Below, piece by piece: positions 9,768 through 61,800 of a DNA stretch of 64,000 nt. The first letter of the stretch is position 1, and each line of letters begins with the position of its first letter. The DNA is taken from assembly GCF_032854445.1 (NCBI RefSeq), contig NC_088296.1, positions 9,522,706 to 9,586,705 of the forward strand, written 5' to 3'. A model generated the notes under the pieces. That model had not been told where the DNA came from and searched no databases. It was given only the letters and a program-made list of their open reading frames with translations. This DNA comes from Liolophura sinensis (taxonomy: Eukaryota > Mollusca > Polyplacophora > Chitonida > Chitonidae). Both the position numbers and the translations under genes were made by a program.

Positions 9768-9945
9768 GCATTCTTTTTATCTAATGCTGCTTAAGCCATG
9801 GAACTAATGTTCGTGTACTTTGTTACTTTTTTTCTTATGAACAATCGGAATAAAACCCCGACAGGAAAATTGACAAGGGGGACCATTTTACCGGCAGTAT
9901 GTGTGAACATTTGCCAACCATGACATTGTCTTCGTTACTATAATT
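9768..9945 (+). mobile_element. Repeat D
   Basis: CTTAAGCCATGGAACTAATG, GGAATAAAACCCCGACAGG and ACATTTGCCAACCATGACAT; diverged. Confidence 0.75.
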
Positions 9946-12755: not shown

Positions 12756-12822
<67 letters not shown>

Positions 12823-12909: not shown

Positions 12910-13057
12910 TTGTGTCGGTTTCACATTATTGTATTCATTCTCAGCTAACTTTATTCCTTGTTCACATCTAAAGAAGATCTGTGTGGGTAAGACATTATTG
13001 TAAGCATCTGCGAAGCCTAGTCCCTTTGCATTGTTTTGACATGAGTAATTCTATACC

Positions 13058-13261
13058 AGAGACGTCTAATAAATTGCAATTAACATCACTGCATATCTAT
13101 TTTTACCTAATTCTGTTAACGTCATAGTGCTAGGGTTGTGTAATTTGCTACTTTTTAAGCACTGATATAAACAGTTAGAATAAAACCCTAACTGGAGTAA
13201 ATTGACAAGAGACCGCATTTCACCGGTTACGCGTGACCATTGTCACACTGTCCTCGCTGCT
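13058..13261 (+). mobile_element. Repeat D, parent of the 81-bp array
   Basis: GACGTCTAATAAATTGCAAT at the left, AGAATAAAACCCTAACTGG in the middle, and CTCTGGTTTTACTCTCTATG leading into the array. Confidence 0.88.
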
Positions 13262-13940
13262 CTGGTTTTACTCTCTATGTTGTAGTCGTATTTCACCGGT
13301 TACGTGTGACCATATGCCAGCTATCACACTGTTGTTGCTGCTCTGGTTTTACTCTCTATGTTGTAGTCGTATTTCATCGGTTACGTGTGACCATATGCCA
13401 GCTATCACACTGTTGTTACTGGTCTGGTTTTACTCTCTATGTTGTAGTCGTATTTCACCGGTTACGTGTGACCATATGCCAGCTATCACACTGTTGTTGC
13501 TGCTCTGGTTTTACTCTCTATGTTGTAGTCGTATTTCACCGGTTACGTGTGACCATATGCCAGCTATCACACTGTTGTTGTTGCTCTGGTTTTACTCTCT
13601 ATGTTGTAGTCGTATTTCACCGGTTACGTGTGACCATATGCCAGCTATCACACTGTTGTTGCTGCTCTGGTTTTACTCTCTATGTTATAGTCGTATTTCA
13701 CCGGTTACGTGTGACCATATGCCAGCTATCACACTGTCCTCGCTGCTCTGGTTTTACTCTATATGTTGTAGTCGTATTTCATCGGTTACGTGTGACCATA
13801 TGCCAGCTATCACACTGTCGTTGTTGCTCTGGTTTTACTCTCTATGTTGTAGTCGTATTTCACCGGTTACGTGTGACCATATGCCAGCTATCACACTGTC
13901 GTTGCTGCTCTGGTTTTACTCTCTATGCTGTGCGTCTTAA
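13262..13940. repeat. 81-bp minisatellite derived from the 3' end of repeat D, about 8.5 copies
   Basis: Units run from GTATTTCACCGGTTACGTG through CTGGTTTTACTCTCTATG at 81-base spacing (for example 13287, 13368, 13449). The unit is the terminal part of the repeat D copy at 13058-13260. Because 81 is divisible by three, two frames stay open for 235-303 codons; this is arithmetic rather than coding. Confidence 0.93.
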
Positions 13941-14134: not shown

Positions 14135-14350
14135 ACGGCTCATATCAATAAGAAAAAAACTAGACAAAATAAAATCAACCATGAACATAGTGAGCTTAGT
14201 ACCCGATCTCTTCTTATCTATCAGAATAAAATTTGCTATAATCTCTGATTCACATCCACATCTGACAGTTTCATACCCGACAATCTGGACCAATTAAGTA
14301 TGACCTAGCCTCATCCTCTTTAACTCACGTGAGTTTAGGTTTCTGAGTTA

Positions 14351-22662: not shown

Positions 22663-24761
22663 CATACATATACATCCATCATGCATGTAACAGACAGCTG
22701 CCGACACCCTTGCTGGGCGAGCTTACACCTAAACCCTGCACAGTGTTTAACGATCCCTACATTTCATTGGTATCTTCCTACACTTTAATATCAAGTGAGG
22801 TATTTCTGCATTAAAGCTCTTGAGCGGTATTTCCTACAGTCAATTTTTCTGAAGATGGACAGAAAACTTTTCTTACGACATTTACAGAAAGGACAATTTA
22901 CAGCCACTTGAATATTTACACAAGCAAGCTGCAGTAAACCTACTGTATCAACCCATTTTTTTAGCAATTAAAGTGCTGTATAGGGAAAAACAGCTATCAG
23001 ACATACACCAACAATATGTAAAGTTACATCTAAAATCAGAGTACGTAATTCGACAGTGTGTCAGTAATGCAAATCGTGTCTCACAAGAAGGGAGTTGGGA
23101 GCTCATGTGGTGTGAGAAGCACGGTCTCAGCCGATAGAAGGCAGTAGTTTCCACTCTCCAGCGGTTGCAAATGTTAAAGTATATAGAGGGACGAGAGACT
23201 GTGACAGTATACATAGCATATACCAGAGCAGCGACGAAAGTGTGATGGTTGGCAAATACCGGAGTTTGCTCCAGTGCACATAGTGCGCCGAAATATAAAG
23301 CATAAAAAATATGACGTCAATATTCGGAGTTATATTCATGTTGGATTAAGCTTAATCTTGATAAATTCATGTATAGTTTTAACTAAGACGTCCCGGGTAT
23401 ACACCAGTATGTGTATAAATATATTTTATTCTAATATTTACTCAGTACTCCGACATATGAAGAATAAAAAAAGATCTGATGTCAACAATCAGAGTTACAA
23501 ATCATTTTGAAATGATAACTTCAGCCATGTTTTTCACTAAAGGATCCCATACATATACTAATATGGTGATCGACTTTCGGTGACTCCAGGCAAACCCTCT
23601 AACAATACGGGCCAGCAGGCTTTGTAGTGTTATTGTTGACTGCATAATGACAGGGTTAAGTAAGCAACGTTATGTCAATGGGGTCGCCTAGAGCACTTTT
23701 TATGTCTGAATCAGGGTTAGGTCCCGCATTCAGGGTGGAAAAAGTCATATAATAAACACACCATTGAATAACACACACCAAAGAAGCCCGACGTCAGCGA
23801 GTTATCAAAAGAAAGTTTTATGTTATTTCATACACGCCATTCACACGCAATGCCCTCTTTTGTCAGGGAGGTAGATTTTTCCCCCCGAACGACCGGTTAC
23901 CAGTAATTTTTACCTTTGGACGCTTGGCTACTTGGAGGTTGGACGTTCTATTATACAGGCTAATAACATATATAGGCATATAGGTTAGATCATACAACCA
24001 GGTCGAGTGTATTGAAAATATATACTTTGGATAGCAAAGGAAAAAATCTTCACGTGCAATATAAATAAAGTTTATGACACAGCCCAAAGAATAAACTAGA
24101 CCAAGCCTGGTTACATTCCAGGGGTTAACAGTCGGTTTCACCTAGTTATCCGTTGTGTGATGTTGACCACTTAACATAGCTGGACCCTAGTTTTCAGAAC
24201 ACCAACTTCTGTCCCAGGGAGCAAAACCTCAAACAACTTGTAACAGTACGGTATGATTTCTTTTCCTATTTTTTCTTTCATTTTACATGTATTACAATGT
24301 TTTAGTTAAATTACAAGTGGCAAGGTTCCCATGGCCGATTCTACAATATCATTTCTGACTTAGATCAAAATTTAAAAACCTTTTTAAAATGTTTAATGTA
24401 ACAATGCTTGTTGCAATGTACTAAAGTTGACATTTTGACCCATTTAATGTGAAATAACATATGTGGTCAAGTAGTCAAAATTCCCACACCCCAATAATAA
24501 AAATCATTTTTCAAATTTTAATTAATAAAAATTGACCTAGGGAATCAATCGCAGTATCGTAAAACTGCCTTCCACTTGAGTAAGACTTACATAAGGAAGC
24601 CTCAATCTGTTTTAAAGTTACTGTCATTATGGTAAGTCACAATTTTAGCCCAGTAAACTGTTTTTAATTTAAAACTAACTCTAACTTAGGACAACTTAAG
24701 ATTTTAGGACCAGTCTTACCTACTTACTAGATCACATATATAGTCTTAACCTCACAGTTGG
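22663..24761. other. Gene-free stretch
   Basis: Holds a repeat D fragment at 23195-23270. The rest is unique AT-rich sequence with no convincing exon. Confidence 0.5.
23195..23270 (-). mobile_element. Repeat D 3' fragment
   Basis: ACCAGAGCAGCGACGAAAGT and GTGATGGTTGGCAAATA only. Confidence 0.75.
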
Positions 24762-25741: not shown

Positions 25742-26721
25742 GCTTTCTGATACGACAGGTGTTTAAATTAACACCCTGCAAATTAAAATGTTGCTGTTTT
25801 CATACTGGTCGTTATGGAATATGGCATGCCGTTTCAGAAGGTGAAAATTTTCCGATTTGTACAGATGGTTTAATTACGCCTACGCCCCGGGACGTGACTG
25901 ACGTCTTTGTTAGTTAGTCATTTTTATTATGCGTGGGGTGAGTTGTTGGATTTAAAAGTTTTCCACCTTTATTTTTCATTTTTTAATCTTTTTATATATG
26001 ACAAAATTAGTTATTTTACCATTGAAATGGATGGGATAATTTCCAGTGACAATTAAATAAAATAAAAACATTTATACACCATAATTTTCAAAGATGAAGG
26101 CCTGTCCTCTTTTTGTGTTTTTCAAACGCGCACGGACTGCTGTGCCTTCATGTTCAACACCCCATATGTGCCCCTGTTTCCATGGCGACAAGGGGTCATG
26201 TTGAATTAGGTCACCAGGTTAGATGTATAAACAGTTGCAATCAAAGCGCAGCTGAGATCCATATTTTCATTATCTAACACTTTACATACTGGCATAGTAC
26301 ATGATTTGAATACCGATTTTATTCATTCGCCTAGAGCATTCCCCGCGTTTTCCCAACATCATTGAAAACTGATGAGTCCCTCCCTTTGCGTGGACGTGAT
26401 CTGAGGACTTGACCTTTAACCTCTAAGACAAACGAGGTGCGGGGATTTGCAGATTTTCCAACTCTCAGTATTTGTGACACTAACCCATCGGCAACACTTG
26501 TTTGGGCGTTTGCACAGTATAACGACAGTTTGTCCTTCACCAATACGGTGTCACATGGAGGAAGTTCGTTAGCAGCTTGCCCAAGGTCTGTGGTTTACGC
26601 CGGACACTTTGACCCATCACTCATGAAACTGACCTCCATCGTATGAATGAATGGATGCATGCATGCATATATGAGCAGTGGAAAACACACCTTCTGTCAG
26701 TGATAATTATTTTGAGTAACT

Positions 26722-26943
26722 GTGACGTCTAATAAATTGCAAGGGGCATAACTGCGTTTTTTTGACTTAATCTTGCTTACGTTATCAGGGGGCGAGTAAG
26801 TGACTTAATGAAGTCTTAAAACCAAAGTTAGAATTAAACCCTGACGGAGGAGTCAAGAGGCCATATTTGTTGGTTGCTTGTGACCATTTGCCAACAATCA
26901 CACTGTCGTCGTTGCTGTGGGGTTTTTTCTCTATACTGTAAGT
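26722..26943 (+). mobile_element. Repeat D, full length
   Basis: GACGTCTAATAAATTGCAAG to CTCTATACTGTAAGT. Confidence 0.85.
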
Positions 26944-27509
26944 TGTTTATATTATACAAAATAAGCGGTGTCAATGAAAATAAGCCAATGACAGAGTGTC
27001 AAAATATATTTGTGTTCAATATATACCTTCATAGCACATCGACATGTGGACTTCACCACATTGTTTACTGTCATAAATGTTTTTAACAGTCATTGTTCAG
27101 ACTGTCATTCCTTCTGTTTCGTAGTCTGTCAATTAATCGTGCCATTGTGGTCTGGCGTCCGACAAAGTCCTCTCGCCACCACCCCCACCCCCACACACCC
27201 ATTCCATCTCCGCCCCATCTCAATCAAGTTCCTCCCATACATTTAATCCCACCACAAACACGAATATGCAATTATACAGGAAATGTTCCATACAGCACAC
27301 GGTAAAAATAGATGGCACGTGTCATGAGTACTAAGTGTGAGAAGCTGCTGTCGGAAACCTTTTAAACTGCCACCATCTGGAAATGGTTAGAGCATACACT
27401 AAGGGTTTCCCACACCGAAAGCTCACATGACGGTATTCTAGCTTATATTTTTACCAATATACATTCTGATATATTATTAAAAAAACAGCTTATCCAGATT
27501 TCTGGAATA

Positions 27510-28041: not shown

Positions 28042-28930
28042 ACTAGAAAATAGTTAATCGAGGCGTCACTACGACCCTTTTGCCGGGTTCTTGACATTTA
28101 TCCCGATAAGATGGTGGAAGACTTGTGAAACCGTTTGCACTTATGTGGTGTGGCCTCGATTTTTTCATTAATATCAATGAATCTGTGCATGATTGAATAT
28201 AAAACAGTACAGAATAAAAAAGACTTGGGAGTAAACCCAGAGCAAAATCAACAGTGTGATGCTGGTACTAGCTGGGGATTTGAAAGAGCGATCTCTGAGT
28301 TTGAAGCCTACGATTCTGGGGATAGACTAAAGAGAAACTCCCGGCTGTGCTGAAGTACATATGGCTTATGTACCACCCTGTTACTCTGGTATATGACCAT
28401 ACGTAAGTTTACCTCAATTAAGACTTTATTCTAAATATATACATGTAAATTCTTATACAGTAGCATCTTAGACACCCTTTGGCACCATGGCTTGACCAAA
28501 ATTAGGTGAGACAATGCGGCGATGTTTGTAAGAATTCATCAGACGTACAGGAAACTACTGTAAATCTTCAACCTTTTCTACCACTAAAGCACTGTTTTCA
28601 GTGGAATTTATGAAGACACGACTTGGTGTGAAAATGGTGCTAAAAAGTATTTGTTTATGTCATTATGCCATAGTTTTTTTCAGAATGTTTCAAAATATTG
28701 GTTTTAAAGGCGGTTGAAAAGGTTGAAGAATATGAATAGTGTCCACATGCGGATTAGCACCTAAATATAATGAATCGGTGTTTCCACCGAGACACAAAGT
28801 TTTATCCAGATTTGTGAATAACTTCTCTTTCGTGAATTTGCTGATACTCATTTAACAATAGTGAGAAATTGTTCGTTAATTCCGTAGCATTTGGGTTTTA
28901 CAATTCTTATGTACTTGGCAAATATTATAC

Positions 28931-31906: not shown

Positions 31907-32162
31907 TTTAACTTTTTGAGTGCACAAGTTGCTTGACCAAGACGAGTACAGAATCACTGCTGAACTTCCCGCGGCCACGTGCCAATTGTATCTCTACATT
32001 TCTCTGCACATGTCTACGAGTGTACCCTGTATACTGTCAGATTGTAAGTGTACAGATTTACCAGCGGTTCCGCTCTGCCCGGTTTCCTCACACCAACATG
32101 CTGGCCTCTGTTACAAAAGTAAGATATTCTTGAGTATACCGAGTGAAAATCCAATCGCCGCC

Positions 32163-33384: not shown

Positions 33385-33910
33385 CTCATGCAATCAGTAT
33401 ACAGGGACCGATCCAATCTATCTCCATGGTTCGATCAACTCTAATAATCTTATTCAAATTTATTCAGAAATGACAAACGACAAAGATTACCAAAGTCGCT
33501 CTGAATATACCACATGTGGTGTATTTCCTTAATTATACGGTTATGCCTCATTTGTTTTCTCTCCAGCATATCTACATCCTTAGGCCTACTGTATAGGCCT
33601 ATAGGTCTACCTAGCTGACCTTGTCATTTTATTTATCTTAGATCTGAGTAAAAATACATATAAATAAGCTGATCTCGGTAAGTAGAATCCATCTTTCAAG
33701 GACGTATGTTAACCATTGTGCAGTATGAAAGCTAATCTCGGTCCTAAAGCAAGCGCCGATGGCACTGGCTGCATGACTAACAGGGGGATAACTCTGCTAA
33801 CCAGGGTGCAGTACTTTCTCCCGATTTAGTGAACCACTGGGCATGCTGCATTCTAAATAGCGGTATTTCTGATTAACTCACTATTACACTGGGGAAAGTA
33901 ATACAATGAA

Positions 33911-34121
33911 AGACATACAGCATAGAGAGTAAAACCAGAGCAGCGACGACAGTGTGATAACTGGCAACTGGTCACACTTTACCGGTGAAATACGGCCTCT
34001 GGTCAATTTACCTCAGGCAGGGTTTATTCTAACTGTTCATATAAATGCATAAACAGTGTCAATTTACACGCCCCCTAGCACCAATGACATAAAGTGTTGA
34101 TTGCAATATATTAGGCGTCAC
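33911..34121 (-). mobile_element. Repeat D, full length, reverse
   Basis: GACATACAGCATAGAGAGTA to TTGCAATATATTAGGCGTCA. It lies about 320 bases upstream of the P450 first coding exon. Confidence 0.88.
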
Positions 34122-34491
34122 TGTTTTAAAAAATTTTAGTTAATAAATTCTCTTTCTTTTGGATGTCGGAAAAAAATAATAAAGAAACTAAATCTGTTAT
34201 CTCGGGGCAAGGTACTTCCCCCGTGGCCAATGAGAAATTATTTCTTTTTTTGTATGGCTAAAAAAATAAAGGTCATCAACCGCTTATGTCGGTTCGTCCA
34301 AACCTTGCCATTTTCTGAGGTCCCACCTAACCACAGCTTACCGCGAAAAACGCACCTTTTAAACGGGGAGATGGTGATCATGGGAGTTAATTCGTTGTAA
34401 TAAGTTAAACTGTACAATTTGTCTTTATGTTATATTTTTCAGATCAAAGGGATCTAAACATCTATTAAGAGTAAAAAGACTAAAGCAAGAA

Positions 34492-34981: not shown

Positions 34982-37900
34982 GTAAGCTTTCGTCGCTTGT
35001 TCGGCCCTGCTGGAGCAAGCAGCAAGCGACGCTCGTGTGGTCATTTGCGCAATCTAACGTTCGTTGAAGACCACATGTCTTCCGCCAATATGGTGTGCAG
35101 ATCTGTACCCCATATATGGGAAAGTTGGTAGTAACTTGCCATAGGTCAGTGGTTTTCCCCAGGCACTCTTGTTTCCTCCACCCACGCTTACCGTCGTATC
35201 GTATATATTCTGATAAATAAATGAATATGAAGACACCAGAGGCAGTTTCCAGAAAGAGATTTTCGATTTAAATCAAAACTTGAAAACTTGAAATGATTAG
35301 AAAAAACTGCACATGTGTTATATGTTAAGTCAGCCATGTCAGAATGTGAGTTCCTAAGCTACTTATTACATCGAGGTTTTAAGTTTTGAATTAAGTCAAA
35401 CATCACTCTGTGGAATTGGCCCCAAGAACAGAGCCTCGTTGCGCAGCGTACCCAGTTTCGGGTGTTTTCATGGAGCCTTTAGGGTACCTTTCAAGGTCAT
35501 GTTTTCAGGGAGCCTTTAGGGTACCTTTCAAGGTCATGTTTTTTAGGGAGCCTTTAGGGTACCTTTCAAGGTCATGTTTTCATGGAGCCCTTAGGGTACC
35601 TTTCAAGGTCATGTTTTCAGGGAGCCCTTAGGGTACCTTTCAAGGTCATGTTTTCATGGAGCCTTTAGGGTACCTTTCAAGGTCATACTTGAAAGGTCCT
35701 GTGCCTCCAAAATACCGTGACATAAACTTCAGACACGGAACACCACGTAGTCACAGTATACCGAAAATCGATTCACCATGAACATTTCCTAAACACTGGT
35801 TAATCATTGATAAATTCAATAGAGTCTTTGTATTTTAAATAGGTTAAACCTGGCCAAGACTGGGCATTTGGTTGCGGGGATTTTCAGCTGTCCATTTCCA
35901 TGGGGATCGTATCAAAGATGCTTTTATGAGAAAGCACAGAAAAACTTCTTTACCCGTCTTTCTTTTTCTTCTCCTTATTATTATTTATTTATTTAATTGG
36001 TGTTCGAAATCTGCAGTTCGTTGTGCTGTCGTGAATTTGTCTTCAGTTTTCTTTGTCTTGCATTTCGTTGCCAGCAAGGGCCAGGAATGGCGCAAGCAGA
36101 GACGGATACTGGCGGAGCCGATGTTAAAACCTGAATCTGTGTCCAAGTACTTCACCGGTCTTCACGAGGTGGGCGTTATTCCGATGCTTTCGTGTCTCCG
36201 TTATGTAATCTGTTATGACGTTTTGGTCATGTGGTTTTTAAACCTTCTATTTCGCATTTAATCGCATCCGTTTGTAAGACTATTTATTGTCAAGCAGAAA
36301 TCAACTGATTGATTTATGGATTAACTTTATTCCTTAAATTCTGTAATGCTGCTTTAAGATGCAATATGATTTCAACAATTATCGGTGAAACTTCAAAACG
36401 TATTAAAGGGCGCCCTTGGTTAACTTGGTAGAGCGCCCACTTCTGGGGCGGTAGGGTCATTACTGGGTCGGGTCACACCTAAGACTTAACAAGAGGAAAT
36501 TGTAGCTCCCTCACTTGGCGTTCAACATTTTGATAAGGGGATAGTGTAACGACTGTTGATATACACGGGCATGCACTCCAAGGATTTCTTCGTGGTTAAA
36601 TGACTGACAAATTGTCAAGTGCGACATTAAACCTTAACCAATCACTCACTCAAAGGGGGTTCATCTTGATGCGCTACGCTAAATAAAATTCCCTGTGCTC
36701 TAACACAATTCTGTAATATTAAATTATATGTCTTTTTCCACATTGAATGGACAGGTAGCGCGAGATGCCGTCAGTCATCACGTGACAAGAACGAGAGCGG
36801 GTAGACGCCTGGACATAGAGCGGTTAACAGGGAAATATGCGCTTGAAGGTAGGTCAGTGCGGTCATCTTGGCATCATGTAATAAATCTGTACAACGTATA
36901 GCATATTCTAGCCCATTGCCTATAATATGTTGCAGTTAACATCACTGCATATTTTGCCTATTTTCTGCTTAAGACATGGTGCTAAGGGATGTGCAACTTG
37001 TTACGATTTAAGCATTTACATGAACATTTAAACATAGCTACTATGTGAATCCCCATACATATATCTGAGCAAGGCATAAGCACCAATACAATTTGAAACT
37101 GTCTTCGGTTTGCTTTTTTTTTTTTCTTAAACAGGCATTGGACGAGCGTTATTGGGGGTGAGGCTTGGCTGTTTCCGTGATTCCGACCCAGAGTATCTGC
37201 AACGTTTTGTGTCTTTGGCCCGGTATGGGGGTTATCATTCGGGGATCGATTCCACCAAGGCATTTCTGACTTAAGGGATACATAATCGACGCCGGTTGGC
37301 TGACGCTGAGTGTATGGTTCTTCGACCATGCAGTCTTGGTCACGCTTGAAGAAATCTACCTAAAATTCAGTTAAGGCTACAAGTAAGCATAGTCTGGACA
37401 TGCCTGTCTCTGACACCAGCCAATCAGAGTCAAGTATGTATACCTTTAAGTCAGAATTTAAAAATTTGATGCTTAAATTTTGCTGATGAGAGTTGCAATT
37501 TTGATACATATATGTCCTATGTTGATACATATATGTCCTATGTTGATACATGCGATAACATTTATGAGGTTGTCACACTTTTATTTATCCAACATCGGGA
37601 AAACTGTTAGGGTTTTCATTAAACAGTAGCACACACGTGGGGGACGTGTATATTCGGATGTGAAAACAATGGTCACATTGTTGAAGCGGCCTAAAGTTAA
37701 GGTTACTGACGCCATATTTTTCGTTATACTATCACGGAGTAGCCATGTAACTAAAGAAAAGTTTGGGCCCTATATGTATAAAAGTTAAAACTGTATTTCA
37801 AAATTTGGCTTTTGAAGTCCGAAATGGGTTTGGTGGAGTCAACCCCTAAATGTATACCACGTGCTTTGTGATAAAGACAAACTGCTCAGTACCGCATGAA

Positions 37901-43900: not shown

Positions 43901-46900
43901 CCATTACTGGTACGACTGATCCTAAACAATTAGCTCATGTGTGTCAAAAGGTCAAACAAGCTCAGTAGTAGTAGTGGCAGTGATTAACCTCGACCAGCTT
44001 ATAAGATGAGAGCAGTGCTGACCTAGTCAGCGCGGACGTCAGAGAAAGCACCTCGGCTTCCACACGGCATTTCAATAAATTTGCTGTAATTTATACAAGA
44101 AAACAGGGAAAAAATCAATCTTTGTATGCGATAAAGACAAAGGAGTGAAATTTAAATTCCTCAATTCTAATAAATTTAGAGAAAAAAAGTTATATCATAA
44201 GTAATTTTAAGCATTGTCCGGTGAAATGAGTTCTTCTTATCCCCATAAACCTTCGGCATTCCAAATGAAATTTTCACTGATTCTGATATTTATTATTTAG
44301 AAACTGCTGACTAAACGTTAAAATGAACGACAAAAAAATTCGTATAATTTGAACAGCGTGTCTAAGTAGGCCTAGGGTCTACTGGGGAGATGAATGTGGT
44401 TTGGGCCGAGACGGTATGCTACTGTCTGACATAATTTGTGATACCGTCGTTGAATATTACACGGCTTGTAAATCAACTAATTTTACATCTGTGGTGGTCC
44501 GTAAATGATACAGACCTGTCCCACAACACTCTGTGAAATAACTCTTCGGCTACACGTAACTAAATCGTTGTAAACGATCTCAAAATCATGTCTTATGCGG
44601 TAATTCTGTATTATCGTATGTCACTTCATAGAGTGAATGGGTAAAGGCTGCGTCACAGCTTAGGCCACTCAACCTGATAGCATCGTGTTTGATTGAATTT
44701 ATAAAATTCTCAAGATGTCTGCCTGGATTCACACCAGCCATTTGTGCAATATTGTCATTTTGATCTACATGTTCTTCCGCGAAATTCCAGTAAAATAATA
44801 AAGTATGATACCGTTTAGAAAGCTTGAGAATCCTGTTTTCGATTGAAATATGTTTTAGCCAGGTGCTGTCTTGTCCTTTAAGGGCTTTCAGGGCACGAAT
44901 GGATTAAGTTTCATATCATTAATTCCTTTATCGATATCGATGATCTATTTGTGGACATCAGTAATTCTCGAAAAAATGTTAATGGATATATGAATAGGTA
45001 ATATAAAACGACGAAGTTGGTTGTAAGAAAAATGAAGAAAAATATGCCAAAAAATGAGAAAAATTCATTTTGAGGCATGTTTTATATTTCTTAATATATT
45101 TTATTACGATTATAGACCCATCTGGCATGTTCGATGTACGTCATGGGAAGAGACGAGACATTATTCCCTGAACCAGATCGCTTTAAACCAGACAGATGGC
45201 TGGGAGGTCGAAACCTAATAGGAGGCTTTTTTACAAAAGTCCCATTCGGATCCGGAGTTCGCATGTGTTTAGGTAAGACGTAATAAATACTGATTTTCTC
45301 TTCTACAATCGCTATGATAATTAATGGGATATTCAGTACAACTCAAATATAGTTGCATTCATTTTCCTACTTATTATTTGAGCTTGTAAAGGCCCTCGTT
45401 ACGGCCGTGGCCTACATTATTCTGCTCACATCTGCAAGCTTTTAAGGTTGAGGGTTCAAATTCAAGATATTCTGCATTTTAATAACAAACCTTTACAACA
45501 TTGTTTTAAACTATTAAAATTTAACTTAATTTAAAAGTCATAACTTTATATTTAACTTTTAAATTTATTTTAAAAGTCGTAACTTTATATTTTAATTTTA
45601 AAATTTAATTTAATTTTAAAAATCGCAACTTTATTTTAAATTTATAAAATTCAGTTTAATTTAAAAGTCAGTAGTTAAATTTTGATTTCATTCAGTAAGA
45701 CACATCCATTCGTATGTTGGTTCCGCTGTGGTTGTACCTGAGTTTTTCAAGGTGAAGGACGGTGGTTTACTATGGGCACTCCTAAACCTGACAATCGTTA
45801 CATCAGTGAAAAATTGTTTAGCGCGGTGTTAACTAGAAATCAAATAAATAAAATCCATTCAAATGTTTAATATACGTGTAGTATAACCCTAAAAAGTACG
45901 ACTTGTTGTATGTTTCGGAGTTATGGCATTTCATTTTGTCATTATTAATCTTCTAACGATACCAAAGTAAAGTAGGTCCTACTGTAAGAGTGTGTCAGAG
46001 TGTATTATACTTAAAGACGTACAGCACAGAGAGTAAAACCAGAGCAGCGACGACAGTGTCAAAGACGTACAGCACAGAGAGTAAAACCAGAGCAGCGACG
46101 ACAGTGTCAAAGACGTACAGCACAGAGAGTAAAACCAGAGCAGTGACGACAGTGTCAAAGACGTACAGCACAGAGAGTAAAACCAGAGCAGCGACGACAG
46201 TGTGACAGACATACAGCATAGAGAGTAGAGCCAGAGCAGCGACGACAATGTCATAGACGTAGAGCATAGAGAGTAAAACCAGAGCACCGACGACAGTGTG
46301 ACAGAAGTACAGCATAGAGAGTAAAGCCAGTGTAGTGACGACTGTGTGACAGACGTACAGCACAGAGAGTAAAACCAGAGCATCGACGACAGAGTGACAG
46401 AAGTACAGCACAGAGAGTAAAAAAAGAACAGCGACGACAGTGTGATATCTGGCAAATAGTCACACGCCTAACCGGTGAAATTCGCCATCTTGTCAATTTA
46501 CTTCAGTCAGGGTTTTCTTCTCTTCATGTACGTATATAAATGGTAGAAATTTACACGCCACCAAACATCATGGCTTAAGCAGAATTAGGTCAAAAAAAGA
46601 ATTACTCAAAATTATGACTATAGTAATAACAGTGCTCGTTTTAAACATAAACCTGTATGGTTTCTCTCTGGCTCTGTTCAGTTGGATATTTCCCTGCAAT
46701 CACAAGCTAATATTAGGGAGATTCGGCGACACGTTACGTTCGCGTAACATTAAATCCTTGTGAAGAAAACTCGTTATGGTATCTTCCTTCTGCAAACTGA
46801 GATCGTTGTACGTCTAGTAAAAGAGCTCAAGATAACACGTATTTTTTTCTTTAGGTTTAAGTTACACATATACGTACACGTATACGTACACGTAAAACGT

Positions 46901-48029
46901 ATAGACAAACTTCTCTAACGATTACTGACTTGAATCGTTGAAAACAGTTTTATAATTTTCGTCGGACTTTCTGTTTGTGCCTCACCAGGTCGGAGAATTG
47001 CGGAAACAGAAATTTTGCTCTTTCTGCTGGAGGTAAGTGAGCGGTTTTTTTTCTTAGAAATACTTCACGTTGGATTTGTAAGATATAAAGATCTAAAGCA
47101 TTGCAGGTTTTAATTCTGTCCCAAGCCATAGCGCTAGGATTGCGTGCAATTTGCTTCTGTTTTTGCATTTACATGAGCAGTTAGAATAAAACCCTAACTT
47201 AAGTGAATTGACAAGAGGCCATATTTTCACCTCTTTCTTGTGACCATTTGCCAATTATCACACTGTCCTGGCTGCTCTGGTTTTGCTCCCCATGTTGTAG
47301 GCTGTATGTTAGATGAAAGCGAAAAAAACAGGATGCTAATGTCTTTTATTTGGAAAGTGTATACAATTTTTGAACATTTTAGAAACGCATATCATCCTGG
47401 AATACCGATTTAAGATGATGCTAGTAAATAGTGATTCATTAGAAATTTTATGAAACGTGTCTCAAAGGTTTGTGTTGAAATAGTTTTCAACACTTTCTTC
47501 TATCCGGTTTATCGGCCTAATAACACAGTTAGTCGACCGTCCCGCTTTGGGAGCGGTAGATCCAGGATCAATCCTGGGTCGAGTCACACCTAAGACTTCA
47601 TAAGGAGGAAGTTGCCTTCGGTAAGGCCGTCTTGGTGAAGCAGCACTAGATAAAAGAGCAGTGAAAATCCCCCTGCAACAGGAGGTATATTACATGCACT
47701 CTAAGTATTCCCTTCGTCGTCATACGACATCAAACCCCAAGCACTCAACTCACTCGGTTTTATTGCTTTTGTGATTGACTTTGTGTTCCTTTGCAGATGT
47801 GTAAAGCGTACAGAATAGAGGCAGAGTCAAAACACTCCTATTGAGCCGACGTTTTCGTATTCTCATGGTTCCCAAGACACCTCTCAGACTAAATTTTTGT
47901 TCCCAGAGAGAGACAAGACGAGACTCAAAGCTTCAGGATATGACTCTTAACCGAGGCGCTCTTAAATCAGTGCCAAAGTTTAAACCATCGATGTCACAGT
48001 CAGATATGGACACATTTTTGGTGGGATAA
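34492..48029 (+). CDS. Mitochondrial-clan cytochrome P450, complete gene with two frame breaks (gene-level entry)
   Basis: Haem-thiolate monooxygenase of the mitochondrial P450 clan (the clan holding CYP10, CYP11, CYP24, CYP27); substrate unknown. Exons: 34492-34981, 36075-36168, 36755-36848, 37135-37222, 38541-38650, 39645-39799, 40148-40311, 41259-41337, 45116-45272, 46989-47032, 47797-48029. All introns are GT..AG with matching phases. Allowing one missing base in exon 1 and one in exon 11, the total is exactly 570 codons, slightly longer than usual for the clan. Landmarks: basic N-terminus (MAKTWRRTPRHL) as in mitochondrial presequences; IPQPFKLPLLGNV near residue 75-90; I-helix ADLLLAAIDTTSS around 334-346; KETLR with ExxR at Glu396/Arg399; FKPDRW at 448-453; haem loop FGSGVRMCLG with Cys476; C-terminal VPKTPLRLNF. 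The breaks may be assembly indels or real lesions. The clan call rests on the presequence and overall motif pattern; the exact family is not resolved. Confidence 0.88.
35466..35690. repeat. 37-bp minisatellite in P450 intron 1
   Basis: About six copies of GAGCCTTTAGGGTACCTTTC + AAGGTCATGTTTTCAGG, with CTTTAGG/CCTTAGG and CAGGG/CATGG variants. Confidence 0.9.
36075..36168 (+). CDS. P450 exon 2 (helix C)
   Basis: TTGCCAG acceptor, GTGGGC donor. It encodes SKGQEWRKQRRILAEPML, the helix C motif W-R-x-x-R that contacts the haem propionates, then KPESVSKYFTGLHE. Phase 2 in, phase 0 out. Confidence 0.88.
36409..36652 (+). mobile_element. SINE-B with internal deletion, P450 intron 2
   Basis: Head GGGCGCCCTTGGTTAACTTG intact; the middle, from the region TATCAGTATAATGG to CCTTGTTGCAGG, is missing. 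Confidence 0.85.
36755..36848 (+). CDS. P450 exon 3
   Basis: Acceptor GGACAG, donor GTAGGT. It encodes VARDAVSHHVTRTRAGRRLD then IERLTGKYALE, consistent with the helix D-E region. Phase 0 in, phase 1 out. Confidence 0.8.
36920..37030 (+). mobile_element. Repeat D 5' half, P450 intron 3
   Basis: GCAGTTAACATCACTGCATA, CTTAAGACATGGTGCTAAGG and GCATTTACATGAACATT. Confidence 0.8.
37135..37222 (+). CDS. P450 exon 4
   Basis: A pyrimidine tract and AACAG acceptor precede GIGRALLGVRLGCF and RDSDPEYLQRFVSLAR, matching the conserved helix E-F segment (ALGTRLG type) of mitochondrial P450s. The donor is taken as GTATGG at 37223, chosen because it leaves two bases that complete the first codon of exon 5. 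Confidence 0.78.
37498..37552. repeat. 21-bp tandem repeat in P450 intron 4
   Basis: TTGATACATATATGTCCTATG occurs in two and a half copies. Confidence 0.85.
37965..38094 (+). mobile_element. SINE-A-related fragment in P450 intron 4
   Basis: Diverged body (CAGTGGTTTATCCCGGGCTC) and GTGAAATATTGCTGA with AAATAAATAAG tail; may be a subfamily. Confidence 0.6.
38541..38650 (+). CDS. P450 exon 5
   Basis: Acceptor GAAACAG, donor GTAATG. It encodes RNFQDAKQLLIVPDCLWGFL then PAWERHNDGWNYILDV. Both splice phases match the neighbouring exons (phase 2 in, phase 1 out). The weak pyrimidine tract makes this one of the least certain boundaries, but the reading frame and the W-rich helix F-G pattern fit. 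Confidence 0.7.
38822..39149 (+). mobile_element. SINE-C, full length, P450 intron 5
   Basis: GTCGGGTCATACCAAATACC, GGTGTCAGTATAATGTGACT, GTCATATGACTGAAAAATTG and AACCATACATACATAC. Confidence 0.87.
39366..39618 (+). mobile_element. SINE-A in P450 intron 5
   Basis: Near full length with a variant head (TTGGCCGAGGTGGTTCG). The tail ends 26 bases before exon 6, so it lies very close to the acceptor. Confidence 0.88.
39645..39799 (+). CDS. P450 exon 6 (start of I-helix)
   Basis: Acceptor ACTTAG 27 bases past the end of a SINE-A copy, donor GTAGGA. It encodes SHHVDNQIERWKAEGYIPED to MSRDELHVNIADLLLAAIDT. ADLLLAAIDT is the oxygen-binding I-helix signature (A/G-G/A-x-D-T), cut exactly after Thr by a phase 0 intron. 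Confidence 0.88.
40148..40311 (+). CDS. P450 exon 7 (I-helix to K-helix ExxR)
   Basis: Acceptor TCTGTAG, donor GTAGGC. It begins TSSAILWALHELSQHPQ, continuing the I-helix, and ends DLHNLEYLRAVLKETLR, the K-helix ExxR. Phase 0 in, phase 2 out. Confidence 0.92.
40571..40612. repeat. (ATT)n microsatellite in P450 intron 7
   Basis: About 14 ATT-type triplets with single-base interruptions (ATC, GTT). Confidence 0.88.
41259..41337 (+). CDS. P450 exon 8
   Basis: Acceptor ATTTACAG, donor GTACTC. It completes KETLR and encodes LHPVAFFSSRITEHDVTIQG then YDIPRK, the beta-1 region between ExxR and PERF. Phase 2 in, phase 0 out. Confidence 0.9.
41571..42838 (+). mobile_element. SINE-A copy split by the LTR-like insertion
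   Basis: Head at 41571-41600 (GGCCTCCGTGGCTCAGTTGG, the A-box region) and body plus AAATAAATAA tail at 42609-42838. Apart from the insertion and one short internal deletion it is close to full length. Confidence 0.88.
41601..42608 (+). mobile_element. Solo-LTR-like insertion (1008 bp) inside a SINE-A copy, P450 intron 8
   Basis: Starts TGTTACCC and ends CATCACA, the TG..CA form of LTRs, with a 3-base perfect terminal inversion (TGT/ACA). It is flanked by a perfect 4-base duplication CTAG (41597-41600 and 42609-42612). Removing it rejoins the SINE-A consensus GCGCTAGCGCAG. Inside, a segment of about 93 bases is present twice (about 41692-41785 and 42209-42303). No coding region, so a solo LTR or non-autonomous element is inferred. 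Confidence 0.75.
42839..45115. other. Right part of P450 intron 8
   Basis: More than 2 kb of unique sequence with no repeat I recognise and no exon-like segment. The joined flanking exons leave no missing coding segment here. Confidence 0.6.
45116..45272 (+). CDS. P450 exon 9 (PERF region and haem-binding loop)
   Basis: Acceptor TATAG, donor GTAAGA. It encodes THLACSMYVMGRDETLFPEP, FKPDRW and VPFGSGVRMCL, with the cysteine thiolate ligand in the F-x-x-G-x-R-x-C-x-G loop. Phase 0 in, phase 1 out, after a 3.8-kb intron that is the largest in the gene. Confidence 0.93.
45495..45680. repeat. AT-rich imperfect tandem repeat in P450 intron 9
   Basis: Three to four degenerate copies of about 55-60 bases sharing TTTAAAAGTC..AACTTTATATTTAA. 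Confidence 0.7.
46012..46450. repeat. 48-bp minisatellite derived from the end of repeat D, about 9 copies, in P450 intron 9
   Basis: Units of ACGTACAGCACAGAGAGTAA + AACCAGAGCAGCGACGACAG + TGTCAAAG. This is the reverse complement of the same terminal segment amplified at 13.3-13.9 kb, but with a different period. The left copies are most alike and the right ones more diverged. The parent repeat D body follows to 46610. Confidence 0.93.
46440..46610 (-). mobile_element. Repeat D, parent of the 48-bp array in P450 intron 9
   Basis: GTGATATCTGGCAAATAGTC, CCGGTGAAATTCGCCATCTT and CATGGCTTAAGCAGAATTAG. Confidence 0.88.
46989..47032 (+). CDS. P450 exon 10 (L-helix)
   Basis: A 44-base exon with acceptor CTCACCAG and donor GTAAGT. 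It finishes the haem loop Gly and encodes RRIAETEILLFLLE, the helix following the Cys ligand. Phase 1 in, phase 0 out. Confidence 0.88.
47098..47312 (+). mobile_element. Repeat D, P450 intron 10
   Basis: CCAAGCCATAGCGCTAGGAT, AGAATAAAACCCTAACTTAA and ACACTGTCCTGGCTGCTCTG. Confidence 0.87.
47521..47755 (+). mobile_element. SINE-B with internal deletion, P450 intron 10
   Basis: GGTAGATCCAGGATCAATCC head, then GAAGCAGCACTAGATAAAAG and AAACCCCAAGCACTCAACTC. It ends about 42 bases before exon 11. Confidence 0.85.
47797..48029 (+). CDS. P450 exon 11 (C-terminus), interrupted by a one-base frame break
   Basis: Acceptor CCTTTGCAG. The natural frame gives MCKAYRIEAESKHSY then TGA at 47842. One base earlier, a second frame gives LLSRRFRILMVPKTPLRLNF and is open to TAA at 48027-48029. 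Both halves match the expected P450 C-terminus (FRIE motif, then RL..VP..PL..F), so a one-base loss near 47835-47840 is the simplest reading. A cryptic acceptor at GTACAG before 47811 would restore frame but would delete the MCKAYRIE segment. Confidence 0.75.
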
Positions 48030-50880: not shown

Positions 50881-51063
50881 ATTAACTGTTTATCTATGAA
50901 TAGATATGAAGATATGAATATCAAATAGTGTTAGATGTGGTTCATTTATATTAAATACCGTGTACTTTTTCATTTAGTATGTATGGTCCCTGTCATTATT
51001 TATTAAATGTTACTGTTTATTAAATGTGTTGAAAACACAGTAATTGAGTAATTCTACACAAGT

Positions 51064-51257
51064 GGCATTTAATATATTGCGATTAAAATCACATCATTTT
51101 TTGCCTAGTTCTGCATAAGCCATGATGCTAGGTGGCGTGTATAATTTGCTACTATGATCTACATGGACAGTTAGAATAAAAACCATTAACTGACAAGAGA
51201 CCTGATTTCATTGGTTGTAACCCTTTACTAATTACCACAATGTCCATGTTGTAGACT
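51064..51257 (+). mobile_element. Repeat D
   Basis: ATATTGCGATTAAAATCACA, ATAAGCCATGATGCTAGGTG and TACCACAATGTCCATGTTG. Confidence 0.82.
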
Positions 51258-53080
51258 TTTATGTTATATGGCAACGAAAGAACCAGTTATCCGGCATCCA
51301 GATTCCCCAGATGGTGCCCACAAACATGCCCGCCCAAACCACGTGCGGTTAATGGCTCCTCTGTTTGACAGTAGTGTTTAACAAGTGTTAATAGGCCATG
51401 TAGTCTGGTTTATCGCTTTTCTACTGCAAGGCCTTCCCTGACACGTGCAAGGCACCTGACACACGAAGAACAATCCCTAGCGTAAATAAACGCCATTGAT
51501 AACATTCTAAAACAGACTATGCTGAGAAGGCGGCTCTAACGTTATTGACGGCCGTTTTATTCCCCATATTAGGAATGACCATACAGTATGCTCCCCATAC
51601 AATCCCTGTTTTGGGGGTTTTCTTTGGCCTTTTCTATGGTAGTTTTTTTTTTGTTCGTTCTACAGCATGTTGAAACATTTTTTTCTGATTTTGTGGCCTA
51701 CAAGTTAAAACAAAACTATACCAATAGGGGTCTATATATGGACATGAAAGTTGATGCCAAAAACGTATGGAAATTCTCAAGATGACGACGGTTAAAACAC
51801 AAATGTTGCGATAACAACAGCCGTTAAGTGGTGGAAGTCATGTTAGGGAATTCAAAATGGCTGTTAATTACAGCAAAGGCGATATTCCTCTGCCTTGCCG
51901 AAAAAGAATTTAGTATCTGTGATAAGAATATTATAGCTATAGGCTTGACAAGACATGTCTGTGGTGAAATATACAAGGAAATGAACATCGATGGAAGCGT
52001 GTCAAAACATTTTGGCACCAACACACACGGCGATCTGGACTGTACAGCACGTGTCCGGTGTCAGCAGCTTATCACGGGTGGCTGAAGTGATATCTTGCCC
52101 GAGATGGGCCATTCAGTGTGAGTTCGGGTGATGGTGGGCAGGTGCACAAAGTCCGTGGGCAAAGAGGTGGAACCCGTGTCTTCCATTGTCAACGGGACTC
52201 ACAAGATGAGATGGTTAAATTATGGCCCAATGCAACAATCAGGCCCTTGACCACTGAGGTTGCGAGTTCGAATCCAGCTCTCTGTGTTTCTATCAAGACC
52301 TTATGCCAAGACTTTTGTCAGGTAAATGTCGAAGATCTGAAGTTTTCTACACCCAGGGAACCTCGATTCCCTCACCAACGCGAAAAATTCTTGGGCACGG
52401 CGTTAAACTCCAGTCAAATAAATGAATTGAAATTCTCTAAAGTGAATATTAGCCTGATTACAAAGTTACGGTTTTGGTAATTTCTAAGTAAGTTCCAAAA
52501 AGTGGATACAGATGTGAGGATTACAGATCAGACCATCGCTCTTCACCAGGTGACCTATACCTGACACACCTGACAAGGAACAGATCAGTATTTGACAAAT
52601 GCCAATGTGATGGCGGTTCCAAAAACTATTTCTCACACGACTGAACCACGTTCAAATTTGTCAGACTGTTGCAGTATTTATGTATTAGTTCGATTGTTAT
52701 TTTACGCCGCACTCAAGAATATTTTACTTATATACTTATGCAGGCGGCCTGCATAAATCGGGCATAGTACGTCCGGGGTAATCCCACGAATGCCCATAAA
52801 ATATCTAAAAGAAGACCTTATTCTGCAGTTACATTCGCCTACAGTTTATCGGATGGGGCGGGGGGGGGGATTAAGTATGCTTTCATTTGTTCTTATTTGT
52901 AATAATGTAATAATACTTCAAATGAAAGCTAAAATGTAACGTCCGGTTCATGTGACTGTCAGCAATAAACTATAAGTAATAATGAATTTTTGTTTTAGAA
53001 TTTTAAAGAGAGCCCGTGCGCTTAAATGTAAAAATTCTAATATGATGGACTTTCTTAACCATAAAGGTTGTTTTCAGCTT
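51258..53080. other. Gene-free stretch
   Basis: Includes a SINE-like relic at about 52235-52430: a tRNA-like GGTTGCGAGTTCGAATCC box B and a tail CACGGCGTTAAACTCCAGTC related to SINE-A but with a different body. Nothing coding is supported. Confidence 0.45.
52675..52793 (-). mobile_element. SINE-A 3' fragment, diverged
   Basis: TTTTACGCCGCACTCAAGAA and GGCGGCC..GGGCATAG..CCACGA in reverse orientation. Confidence 0.75.
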
Positions 53081-55855: not shown

Positions 55856-58800
55856 GTAAGTAGGCAGTGTTTTTCTGATCATTTGTAAATGTGATTATAC
55901 TGTTATAACTGTAGGTGACTTTATGTATCTGTGGGTTTTAAAGCATACAGAATCAATTCTGAATTGCTGGTGAGAGAGAAAGGCTTTGTCTAGTCAAAGC
56001 TGAATTTTAGGTATGGCAGATTTATTCAAGCGTAACCAAAGCTGAGGATTTAACCCAGGGAACTCTATCACCACTGTCAACCAATCAGCGTCGATTCCTT
56101 ATCCATTTAATCTGGTTTTGTGTTATGTGTCATGACCAAACAGGATTGTGAGTAAATGAACACAGGTGACGTCTAATAATTCTCAACTATCATCACTGCA
56201 TTTTTTTTACCTAATTCTGATAAAGCCATGATCCTAGGTGCGTGCACTTTGCTACGTTTAGGCATATCCATGAACAAAAATGTATACATGAGGTAAATTG
56301 ACAAGCGGCCGGGTTTCGCCCTTAATACGTGTGACGATTTGCCAACTAGCACACTGTGGTCAGAGCTCTGCTTTTGCTTTCTACGTTGTAAGTCTTTCAC
56401 TGTATTGTATTTTTCTTGTAGAACAGTTCGTAAAAGCACAGCAGTGGAAACAGCAGAGTTATCAGAAGGCGTTTATAGTTTTACGGGCAAAAAGATTAGT
56501 ATGCCAGATACTGTACCGTTGTTTTGGAATCGAGCCAAAACAAATTTTTCTGTCGCTGTGATAGAAATTTTCACTAAGTGCAGATTGACACAAGCAAAGC
56601 TAAGCATGTAATCTACCTAGTTTGATCTTATAAGCTAGTGTGGGAACATAACTTTAGAGCATTATAGTTGGAATTGTTACTAACCATTCACGCAGAACAA
56701 CAATCATGGCTGGAGCTCTACTTATAGTTAGTTACATATTTGACATCGCGCTCAAAAATTTTATTTTGGACTTTTACTTCGTTAATTGTAAATATTTCCC
56801 GTGGATACACCTGAATATACATGTATAATATTCTATTCTTCGAGAGAAGACTTATTTATTTAATAATATTTTATGGCGATTTAATAGAGTTAAATGGAGC
56901 AAACCGTGCAAAACCACAGACCTTTGTAAAGCACTTGGCACACCTGCTCACTTATACCTGAATATACATGTATAATATTCTACTCTTCGAGAGAAGACTT
57001 ATTTATTTAATAATATTTTATGGCGATTTAATAGAGTTAAATGGAGCAAACCGTGCAAAACCACAAACCTTTGTAAAGCACTTGACACACCTGCTCACTT
57101 ATACCGCAACAGTGAAGTGGAATTACATAGAACATGGTGGCAAACTCACCTTGACGTCAGGGTACCTCTCCCTTGCAAAATGAATTAACCAGTGTTAATA
57201 CTCTTGTCATCATTGGGTAATACGTTTCTTCGCAAAACGTCATCTAAGGGGCAGGAATAAACAAAAGATTACAAAGCTTGGATCCAAATAACTGTAGACG
57301 GGAAAGACTTTTCAGTACAGCAGCTTCCAAAATTTCGAAATTTTTATCAGTTTGTCGGTGATAGTTTTCGTTTTCTCATCAAAATCTTTATTATCTTGTG
57401 GATTTTGTTGGTCTATTCATTTCATATCTTCATCAAAAAAAAAATATTATGACGGTGAAGGATTTGTAATTATTGACTGTTTACACTGGCCTACATATTC
57501 ATTGTTATTGGAGCCACGCATACTATGGTTTTGAAACGGTATAGACCAATCGTTGAGATTGACGTCAAGCGCAACACAGACAGACATGCAGACATGTGGT
57601 TTCATCTTCCGACGTATTATCAGGGGCGGCATAAGTGAGGTGTATGGAATTTTGACAAGACTGCTGCTTAGCGGTGTTAAGACATGTAAACAAGACGCCC
57701 AGATGGCTGAGCACTTAACTAGAGGGCAGACCTGGCTGCTTGAATCAAGTGCCGATCACAGAGAGTAAATCACGACGGCGGCAGCAGAGTGTCTATTTAC
57801 ATTACCTTCACACTGTCTAACAGGCCTCAGGGATTCAACTGTGGTGTATTTCTGGCCACGTTAGTGGTTAAGGTGCCCTTCTTGTATACAGCTGCCTTTT
57901 TACATACACATGCTCCTTACCCCATCCTCGACACAAGAGCCTCTCACCAATGATGTCGCTATGGGTTCAAATCCACCTCATGCTGGTTTCCTCTACGACC
58001 GCACGTGGGAAGGCTGTCTAGAACCTGGGGATGGGGGTTGGCTTTCCCCGGGCTCTCTCGTCGTTGACGGCTGACTGACGGAGCGGCTTACATAGCTGCA
58101 TGTAGCAGGGGATTTGCATGAGGTGCATATCAACCGGAATGGCGTGCATTTTTGAAATGTGCATTAAAACTTGTTAGTCAGTTGTTTAAATAAGACCCAT
58201 TAAATCATCTTTAACTTGTCCGTACAAATATTTAAAACGACAGCAATACAATGCTATATATACACGAGCAGTAATGTGGCTTTTTGACTCATTTCCTGTT
58301 GTATTCCTGCATAAAGCGGGATTACTGATGGTGGCTAAGCATTTTTGAGACCTGGTACCCTTGTATTTATTTATGTTATTTGATTGATGTTTTACGCCGC
58401 ACTCAAGAATGTCTCATTTATACGACGGCAGCCAGCATTATGGTGGGAGGAAACCGGGGGAAACCCACGACCATCCAGAGGTGACTGGCAAACCTTCCCA
58501 CCTACGGCCGGAGAGGAAGCCAGCATGAGCTGGACTTGAACTCACAGCGACTGCATTGGCGAGAGGCTCCTCTCATTACGCTGGTCACAGCGCGTACTTA
58601 ACGTGATGATAGCACGGTATTTGAATACATTAGTAACATCTAATACATTTGCAATTAACATCACTGCATATTTTTAAAGCTTATTCTGCTAAGGCCGTGG
58701 TGAACCAAGTGAAAGTGTAAATTTGCTACACGAATACATGAATGGTTGAATAAAACCCTTAGTGAGGTAGACATGGGACCATATTTCATTTGCATCGTGT

Positions 58801-61800
58801 CACCATTTGGCAACTTTCACACTGTCGTCAGTGCTCTGTTTTTTACACTCTGTGCGGAAATCTGGTTGTGAATTGCACGACTAATTTGGGACGAGAAGTC
58901 GAATGGTGCCAACCGTGCCATATGCCCTCACTCCCAACGTTCTCTCGACTGCAGTACAAATTACAAAACAGCGTGGCACCAAAACTTGTATTAGTTCCGT
59001 AGGCCTACATCATTAAGTATAATCATTAGCACCCTAAAATGCATAACCGGAAAAAATAACGGACCTTCTGACGGGTAAAAACTAATGTCAAGTTAACTCA
59101 TGTCAAATGTATAAAAAGGGAAGAAATGGGAAGAAATTGACAAAAAACAAAAGAATTTTAAAAACCGTAGCCAGAAGTACGCACCAAGAACGAGTCTTGC
59201 GTTATGGCGTGTGGCTTAAGTCCTGTGACAATTGAGGCCTATAATCAGCGTTAGCATTTGTGTGCGACAAACTGTTTAACATGGAAAACATTTAGCGTTC
59301 TGCTTCATGGGGATTAAGGAAGCAAATCTTGCAACCCATGGGACAGGATTGCCTGCCACCTACTTGAAATAACAATGCTGCAGTCATTTCAATAATAATA
59401 AATCTGCCAGGCGCTGCCCAAGGTCCCACAAGCAGTGAGAGTGTGGGAATCTACAAATTCCCTGTCCAGTGAGTGAGTGAGTGAGTGAGCGAGTGCTTAG
59501 TCTTTAACGCCCTACTTAACAATTTTTCAGTCATATGACGACGAAGGATTCCTTAGAGTTCCTTGTTCGTGCAATGTGCCTCCTTGTTGCTGGACGGATT
59601 TCCACGGCTCTTTTTTCTAGTGCTGCTTCACTGAGACGTCTTACCGAAGTAAAGTAAAGCGCCTCGCCCGAGCCATTATACTGATACGGGTCAACCAATC
59701 GTTGCACTATCACCTTAATGCTGAACGCAAAGCGAGAAAGCTACAACTTTCTCCGTTAAGGTCATAGGTGTGACCCGATACGGGGTTGACCCTGAATCTA
59801 CAACCGCACCCGACGCAGATGCTCTACCAATTCCTTTCCAAGAGATGACATGCATGTAAATTCCGTGTTGCTTTTGTAGCGTGACAGTAGAGCCACCCAG
59901 TCGGTAAGCAATCATCCAACTTTCTTATCTTTTCATTCAGTGGTTACCTGATAGTGGCCCCGTCCGTTTTTAGACCCGGCGTCCGGGAATTGATCAGCGT
60001 CACCATTCTACACCCTACCGCCCCCATCACGGTCGAATCCAAGTTGATCACCGATAAAGGGGAGATCATAGCGCATGAAGGACGCGAAATATTCGGTATG
60101 TCGAAGGATCAGATGTTAATAAATTGTACTCCTCTTGTAAACTCCTTTAAAACGTATCCATTCTGCTTTCATTTGTTTGTTGTTCGATTCAATTTGAAAA
60201 ATCAATTTATATTGAGTACTAAAGTTTCTGAGCTGTAATTTGACCTAAATTATAAAAAAAGAAAATAGAAAACGCAAAGAGTAGTATTATGATTACGTGT
60301 TTTATCAAGGTCTCCTTTTAAATTATGCCTCGCAGTTGGTATGACTCATTTATTCCATTATAATTGTGTTTAACGCCAAATGGGATAAAGTTTCACTTAT
60401 CTAACGGCGGTCCGGTATATGGGTGGAATACACCGGATACCCTGGAGTGAATCGCTTCGCTGGCTACCTGACAGACCCTGCTTTCTCTGTCATTATATTT
60501 ATACTGCATGCATCTCACCAATGCGGTTGCTGTGAGTTCAAGTCCAGCTCATCCTTGCTTCCTCTCCAGCCGTACGTGGGAAGGTCTGTCAGAAACCTGT
60601 GGATGGTCGTGGATTTATCCCGGGCTCTACCCCGTTTCCACCCACCATAATTCTGGCCGCCATCGTATAAGTGAAATATTCTTGAGTACGGCGTAAAACA
60701 CCGATCAAATAAATAAATAGATAAATAAATATACTGCATGCACAAAATTTAAAGTGATTTTCTTATACAATATTTTACTTACAGGCAAAGGATCACTTGT
60801 TTTAGAGGTAAATATACATTTGTTTTGTATTGTCTAAATTTTTTGTTGTTTCTACCGTAAAGTCACAGGTTCTGATTCGTACCATTTTAGGGTGGTGTGC
60901 AGGGAATAAGAAAGAATATACGTTCTGTGAATCAGTGAATTTTGTAAAGAGTCAGTTTGGAGATCAAATTCCCAAAACTGTTATGCATTCTTGGGAATCA
61001 TCGTGTTAACAAGCACGATACAGACGCATTAGAATAACAGTACTTTTGGTAAACGCGATGAAGGGTGTCTCATGGAAGCCATACACCCCCATTGTGTATT
61101 ACACAATTTTCATTCTCGTTTGCAGAAATGCTTACGAAAAGACTTCTTGTAGTAGCTCAGAGGGGCCTCCTTGGCTGAGTGCGATGCAATGCCTCAGGAG
61201 CCTATCGCCAACGCGGCCGCTGTGAGTTCAAGTCCAGCTCATGATGACTTCCTCTCCGGCCGAACGTGAAATATTCTTGAGTACGGCGTAAAGCACCAAA
61301 TAAATAAATAAATAAAAGACATAATGCGTAACAGTGCACTCATAACTGCCTGACCGAAATTGTCAATTATAATCGTGCATACAGTTCCACATAACAAGAA
61401 AGTAATTCAGAACAAACGTATACTAAATACAGGTCTGCCAGCAGCCTGCGGGTGGTTGTGGCTTTCCCCCCGGGCTATGTCAGGTTTCCTCCCACAATAT
61501 TGCTGGCCGCCGTTGTATCGTTGAAATATTCTTGAGTACGACGTAAAACACCAATCAAATAAATATATACATATAAATAGTAGCTCAGGGGTTTTAAAAT
61601 GCACAGGTGCCAATGAATGCCAAAGGACTTGCGCAGTTGAAAGTTTGTGGGAACTGCCTGTCTACGGAAAAGAGAGACTACTCGTTCTTCAATTCCAGTT
61701 CTGTGGTGATCGAAAAGCGACGGTCGGTGCTGTTTATAGATACAGACAAACCGATGTACAAACCGGGACAAACAGGTACGTCATCATCAGCATCACCACC

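Follow-up and report, generated by a model that had tools for sequence, protein, structure and literature searches.

Two minisatellites with units of 48 and 81 bp, found in the 64-kb stretch of DNA analysed here (the window), are probably secondary, each born after insertion within a separate copy of one dispersed repeat of about 280 bp (repeat D). Both arrays are bordered inwardly by the native body of a D copy and outwardly by D-like terminal bases, and, as in secondary minisatellites derived from transposable elements (TEs), their unit matches part of a dispersed repeat, the remaining copies of which carry no array. The initial annotation had reported at the second locus an array in reverse orientation, formed from the end of D with a unit of 48 instead of 81 bp, and Tandem Repeats Finder together with the core sequence common to both arrays confirms it. 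The features concerned are collected in Table 1.

Table 1. Positions of repeat D copies and of the arrays formed from them in the 64-kb window
Position	Strand	Feature	Basis
2142..2357	-	D copy, unamplified, distal end not reached (model positions 2-235)	HMM
9725..9978	+	D copy, unamplified	HMM
13043..13242	+	Body of the D copy bearing the 81-bp array	HMM
13243..13931	+	81-bp minisatellite, common core plus about 35 inner D bases	Tandem Repeats Finder, register alignment
23204..23257	-	Solitary D end, one unit	HMM, E 2.2e-7
26714..26952	+	D copy, unamplified	HMM
28226..28550	-	D copy, two segments taken as one locus	HMM, 28550-28403 (E 9.2e-20) and 28263-28226 (E 0.007)
33898..34131	-	D copy, end single and unamplified	D HMM; single end 33898-33957
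36906..37055	+	D copy, truncated (model positions 7-163)	HMM
45998..46012	-	Outermost part of D beyond the 48-bp array, AAGTATAATACACTC in D orientation	HMM 46061-45999, model positions 207-278
46013..46443	-	48-bp minisatellite, nine units, from an apparently subterminal segment of the D copy	Tandem Repeats Finder, register alignment
46444..46607	-	Body of the D copy bearing the 48-bp array	HMM match 46639-46395
47060..47324	+	Single-ended D copy within the next P450 intron, inverted relative to the copy bearing the 48-bp array	HMM
51046..51279	+	D copy, unamplified	HMM
56150..56407	+	D copy, unamplified, nearly full-length (model positions 1-274 of 280)	HMM
58625..58871	+	D copy, unamplified	HMM

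Repeat D and the two arrays

Repeat D is present at 13 loci of the window, as 14 HMM segments that cover 2,825 bp (about 4.4% of the sequence), with the two segments at 28 kb taken as one locus, array units counted with the locus to which they belong, and model matches with E-values of 0.86 and 4.8 left out. The model was built from 11 copies, so the E-values of those 11 are by construction; pieces outside the model-building set also match, two of them clearly (at 28 kb and 23 kb) and a third weakly (28263-28226), and the best E-value obtained with the reversed window as control was only 0.76. Since the bodies of seven copies are 74-83% identical in pairwise comparison (differences of 17-26%), D is regarded as old. 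Arrays are present in two of the 13 loci, or in two of the 10 that reach model position 245.

The array at 46 kb has a period of 48, 9.0 copies and 89% matches; its outer four units (46013-46204) are almost identical and the inner ones more diverged. The range first assigned to it, 46012-46610, does hold the array, and it also takes in the body of the same D copy; positions 46607-46599 correspond to the far end of this copy, GAGTAATTC. Near this far end an internal deletion joins GAGTAATTC to a T-run. The array at 13 kb has a period of 81, 8.5 copies and 95% matches; the core occurs nine times in it, and its first copy measures 73 bp, with 8 bases missing.

A 42-nt core (consensus by eye TSACACTGTCGTCGCTGCTCTGGTTTTACTCTCTRTGCTGTA) is common to the 48-bp units, the 81-bp units and the single D end at 34 kb. 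A 28-nt core pattern, allowing up to three mismatches, was found at 20 places in the window (nine in each array and one in each of two single D copies, at 33916 and 47272), against a mean of 0.00 in 100 shuffles; an exact search of viral contigs with the same pattern gave no match, which says little on a eukaryotic repeat. Among five single copies, the one at 34 kb has the core closest to the units of either array (ungapped mean distance of 0.069 for the 46 kb array and 0.077 for the 13 kb array).

The outermost unit of each array continues, as judged by eye, into 10-15 further D-like bases (following the 81-bp array, AAATTATACTACTC; following the 48-bp array, TAAGTATAATACACTC). The likeness of these bases to the ends of the unamplified copies at 34 kb and 56 kb (TCATTGTATTAC and TCACTGTATTG), and that of the remnant outside the 48-bp array to the sequence following the 81-bp array, were likewise judged by eye, and a continuation of this kind was not clearly seen in five other copies (26, 47, 58, 9, and 51 kb). 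On this reading of the sequence the amplified part of D would be subterminal rather than terminal: the description of the amplified sequence as terminal is right in placing it near the end of D and needs amending in that the arrays stop before the outermost bases of the element.

The left end of D reads GAGTAA at the aligned place in four of 12 left ends, all four with a preceding T, and also in the array-bearing copy at 46 kb. The right end is less clear; GAGTAAT occurs at both inferred ends, the right one having been placed with that match in view. The inverted match between the inferred ends was equalled in 269 of 2000 shuffles and is not significant. Inspection by eye revealed at the ends of D no subTIR of 11-12 bp, such as HINE and Helentron elements have along with insertion between T and T, and no evident target-site duplication, the ends being uncertain and the copies old. 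A 3' palindrome or stem-loop, a feature of HINE and Helentron elements, was not found at the inferred end, a result that holds only if this end is correctly placed, and the array, a regular part of such elements, occurs in two of the 13 D loci. With neither significant terminal inverted repeats nor a hairpin at the inferred end, the proposed comparison of D with Helitron-like or MITE families was not borne out. Other identities were also considered: as a tRNA-type SINE, D yielded no tRNA (ARAGORN, bacterial code), and as an Rfam-type SINE it gave no Rfam match at gathering scores. A single element with long inverted ends spanning 46404-47299 was suggested by two inverted D copies with the look of terminal inverted repeats and was rejected as well; because no such inverted partner accompanies the other D loci, the inverted D pair in this interval is read as two insertions.

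Origin of the arrays

Two independent array births are the best reading of the data and, as the initial annotation proposed, are well supported by differing unit junctions, by the divergence of the two D bodies and by flanks that, over the stretches compared, share repeat E only. The outer 48-bp units retain the native GTCTT at the junction and the 81-bp junction joins GTC to the inner sequence GTATTTCACC; the 48-bp unit is therefore not simply a deletion of the 81-bp unit, or the reverse. The bodies of the two array-bearing copies are 81% identical (108/134). Core divergence is 0.107 and 0.073 within the arrays against 0.143 between them, and the within-array values are also below the differences among the seven D bodies, which concern a different part of D. 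Gene conversion could give an old array such a young look. A tree of the units (42 sites, mixed support) fails to resolve the arrays as distinct groups: the last unit from 13 kb is placed next to the 34 kb copy and the units from 46 kb, and array units are interspersed with the single copies from 26, 47, 56, and 58 kb. Such mixing is possible where the two arrays have a single ancestral end sequence and the ancestral state is retained in the outermost unit; the tree does not prove that the arrays are independent.

The derivation of one array from the other, either by duplication of a locus or by a 33-bp deletion in the 81-bp array that created 48-bp units which then spread, is very improbable. 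The arithmetic (81 minus 48 is 33) suits it, and an 81-bp unit deprived of its inner part would have a junction resembling that of the 48-bp unit; the native GTCTT of the outer 48-bp units, absent from the 81-bp junction, and the 81% identity of the bodies argue against it. Repeat E is found outward of each array, at 59 and 161 bp, and its orientation with respect to D is the same in both cases, an arrangement that would also fit a common locus, but E has 30 merged hits in the window and given this density its placement is taken as chance. The comparison of flanks, which covered about 2 kb for three of them and 416 bp for the remaining one, gave no further match, and shared flanks were rejected as a sign of one duplicated locus, both matches being to repeat E.

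Nor is it probable that D has the arrays as a built-in module, as a Helentron-derived HINE or a tandem-repeat MITE would, and that they were carried along by transposition. D is short and abundant, and oyster Cg_HINE elements, which are non-autonomous Helentrons, are described as likewise short and abundant, with short, dispersed satDNA-like arrays at their center (PMC7492417). In the description of Cg_HINE, however, the array is a permanent component, located between left and right flanks and accompanied by subTIRs and a 3' palindrome (PMC7492417), whereas 11 of the 13 D loci are array-free and the inferred D end lacks a palindrome. The two arrays moreover differ in period and junctions, no hairpin was detected in six end stretches and the inverted ends are not significant. 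The foldback transposon Tetris, with its TIR-220 repeats, resembles D in having tandem repeats in the terminal part of a non-autonomous element; its terminal inverted repeats, as reported, hold repeats of about 220 bp (PMC4079207), whereas no significant ones occur at the inferred ends of D, whose units measure 48 and 81 bp.

For the preferred secondary origin, the following course is proposed. D would have spread long ago as an element of about 280 bp with a single-copy end, the state still found at the 11 array-free loci. Later, a stretch of this end may have been tandemly duplicated in two separate copies by replication slippage or unequal exchange, with inner starting points that differed, lying 48 bases from a nearly common outer point in one copy and 81 in the other. 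Growth to about nine copies would have followed by unequal exchange or gene conversion between units, and the near-identity of the outer four 48-bp units is as local homogenisation would leave. Nothing noticed in the window suggests that D requires either array or that the arrays themselves serve a function.

Events of this kind are ordinary, and the two D arrays are a new example of TE-derived minisatellites, a class well documented in human, where at least 7,276 arrays, 23% of minisatellites and satellites, are reported to derive from TEs (PMC3389668). As in D, those described begin inside single dispersed repeats after insertion, some segments being spanned more often than others, and most are without founding direct repeats, which are given for 300 of the 7,276 cases; established founding mechanisms fit only 6% (PMC3389668). 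That account leaves the start of the minisatellite unexplained for most human cases (PMC3389668). D is a different repeat from those in the human account (PMC3389668), in an apparently molluscan genome, and the cases here are two; they form a tidy natural instance of two minisatellites raised with different periods from one repeat segment.

Tandem growth at the end of D

The further claim that this end of D is prone to tandem growth is hinted at by the placement of the arrays; founding repeats and folding were respectively not significant and not unusual. Seventeen arrays were kept from Tandem Repeats Finder after removal of periods 1-4, overlapping rows of one array and four short arrays (29147-29175, 30696-30731, 46863-46894, and 61782-61813), and two of the 17 have units inside D. 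Two arrays were founded anywhere in D in 11.5% of random placements (P 0.115), or 15.1% with looser edges (P 0.151), so their presence inside D is not in itself surprising. The placement of both on one 40-nt D segment in different copies is less expected (P about 0.011), in a test designed after the result was seen and with n=2.

Founding direct repeats were listed for five unamplified D copies and tested against shuffles in two of them (34 kb and 56 kb). Near a spacing of 48, the best repeat in the 56 kb copy had 6 nt (CACTGT, 46 bases apart, equalled in 45 of 500 shuffles), and that in the 34 kb copy had 3 nt (496 of 500). Near 81, the 34 kb copy gave a best repeat of 5 nt (130 of 500) and the 56 kb copy one of 4 nt (344 of 500). 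Founding microhomology, whether CACTGT 46 apart or TTTCA 79 apart, was consequently discarded as not significant against shuffles. The short direct repeats of the Haber-Louis model, a feature not essential to secondary TE-derived minisatellites, were thus not found in the two copies compared with shuffles. Five copies supplied six stretches of the inferred right end for DNA folding, a seventh stretch being a left end, and folding of the six was no better than in shuffled sequence (z from -0.25 to +1.64), which leaves hairpin-driven growth unsupported.

That the end of D is a true hotspot, a segment or outer boundary that repeatedly provokes tandem duplication, is compatible with a secondary origin of the arrays and is considered unlikely, though less so than a built-in module. 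The same-segment placement and the outer breakpoints of the two arrays, about 2-3 nt apart by eye, speak for it, as do comparable hotspots in human, where AluS and LTR12 are reported as preferred array segments (Ahmed and Liang, 2012; PMC3389668); the same authors suspect that LTR12 elements already contained arrays (PMC3389668). Against it stand the post hoc nature of the test with its two cases, the unremarkable frequency of two founding units anywhere in D and the absence of significant microhomology or of a folding signal in the copies analysed. A more specific form, held with still greater reserve, would place an intrinsic boundary near GTCTT, inside the outermost 15 or so bases of D, at which recurrent breaks or nicks might yield duplications sharing an outer breakpoint and differing in their inward reach. 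Were such a boundary real, D copies would seed a genome-wide class of minisatellites with one edge fixed and the other variable, and if many D arrays across the genome share the outer breakpoint, D would be useful for studying how minisatellites begin.

Genomic setting and other repeats in the window

The 48-bp array lies inside an intron of a cytochrome P450 gene, the preceding exon ending at 45272 and the next beginning at 46989; the joined exon reading matches PF00067 with an E-value of 2.2e-16. An open frame at 34572-34982 may be an earlier P450 exon, to judge from a weak match to the same family (E 0.00029, 20.2 bits against a cut-off of 22.8). The P450 exon at 46989-47033 is flanked by an inverted pair of D segments (46404-46464 and 47239-47299; 61 nt, 79% complementary), whose base pairing in the transcript might promote skipping of the exon or formation of circular RNA.

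Repeat E (TTTATTTATTTGATTGGTGTTTTACGC...), a very abundant repeat that may resemble one common in mollusc genomes, is found at 12815-12990, at 13990-14140 and in 28 further merged hits. A 2341-2901 segment on the minus strand contains a cysteine-rich open frame with a weak match to the Pfam EB module (E 0.00041, below the curated cut-off). Several other arrays occur in the window. One, at 17773-21885 (4.1 kb), comprises 86 copies of a 48-bp unit for which no relative was detected elsewhere in the window at E 1e-4, and both of its strands are traversed by long open frames. An array at 11362-12456 is based on 24 bp, with higher-order periods of 49 and 73. The arrays at 6058-8041 and 32159-32684, with units of 38 and 41 bp, match at about 69% in opposite orientation and are possibly another pair derived from one source.
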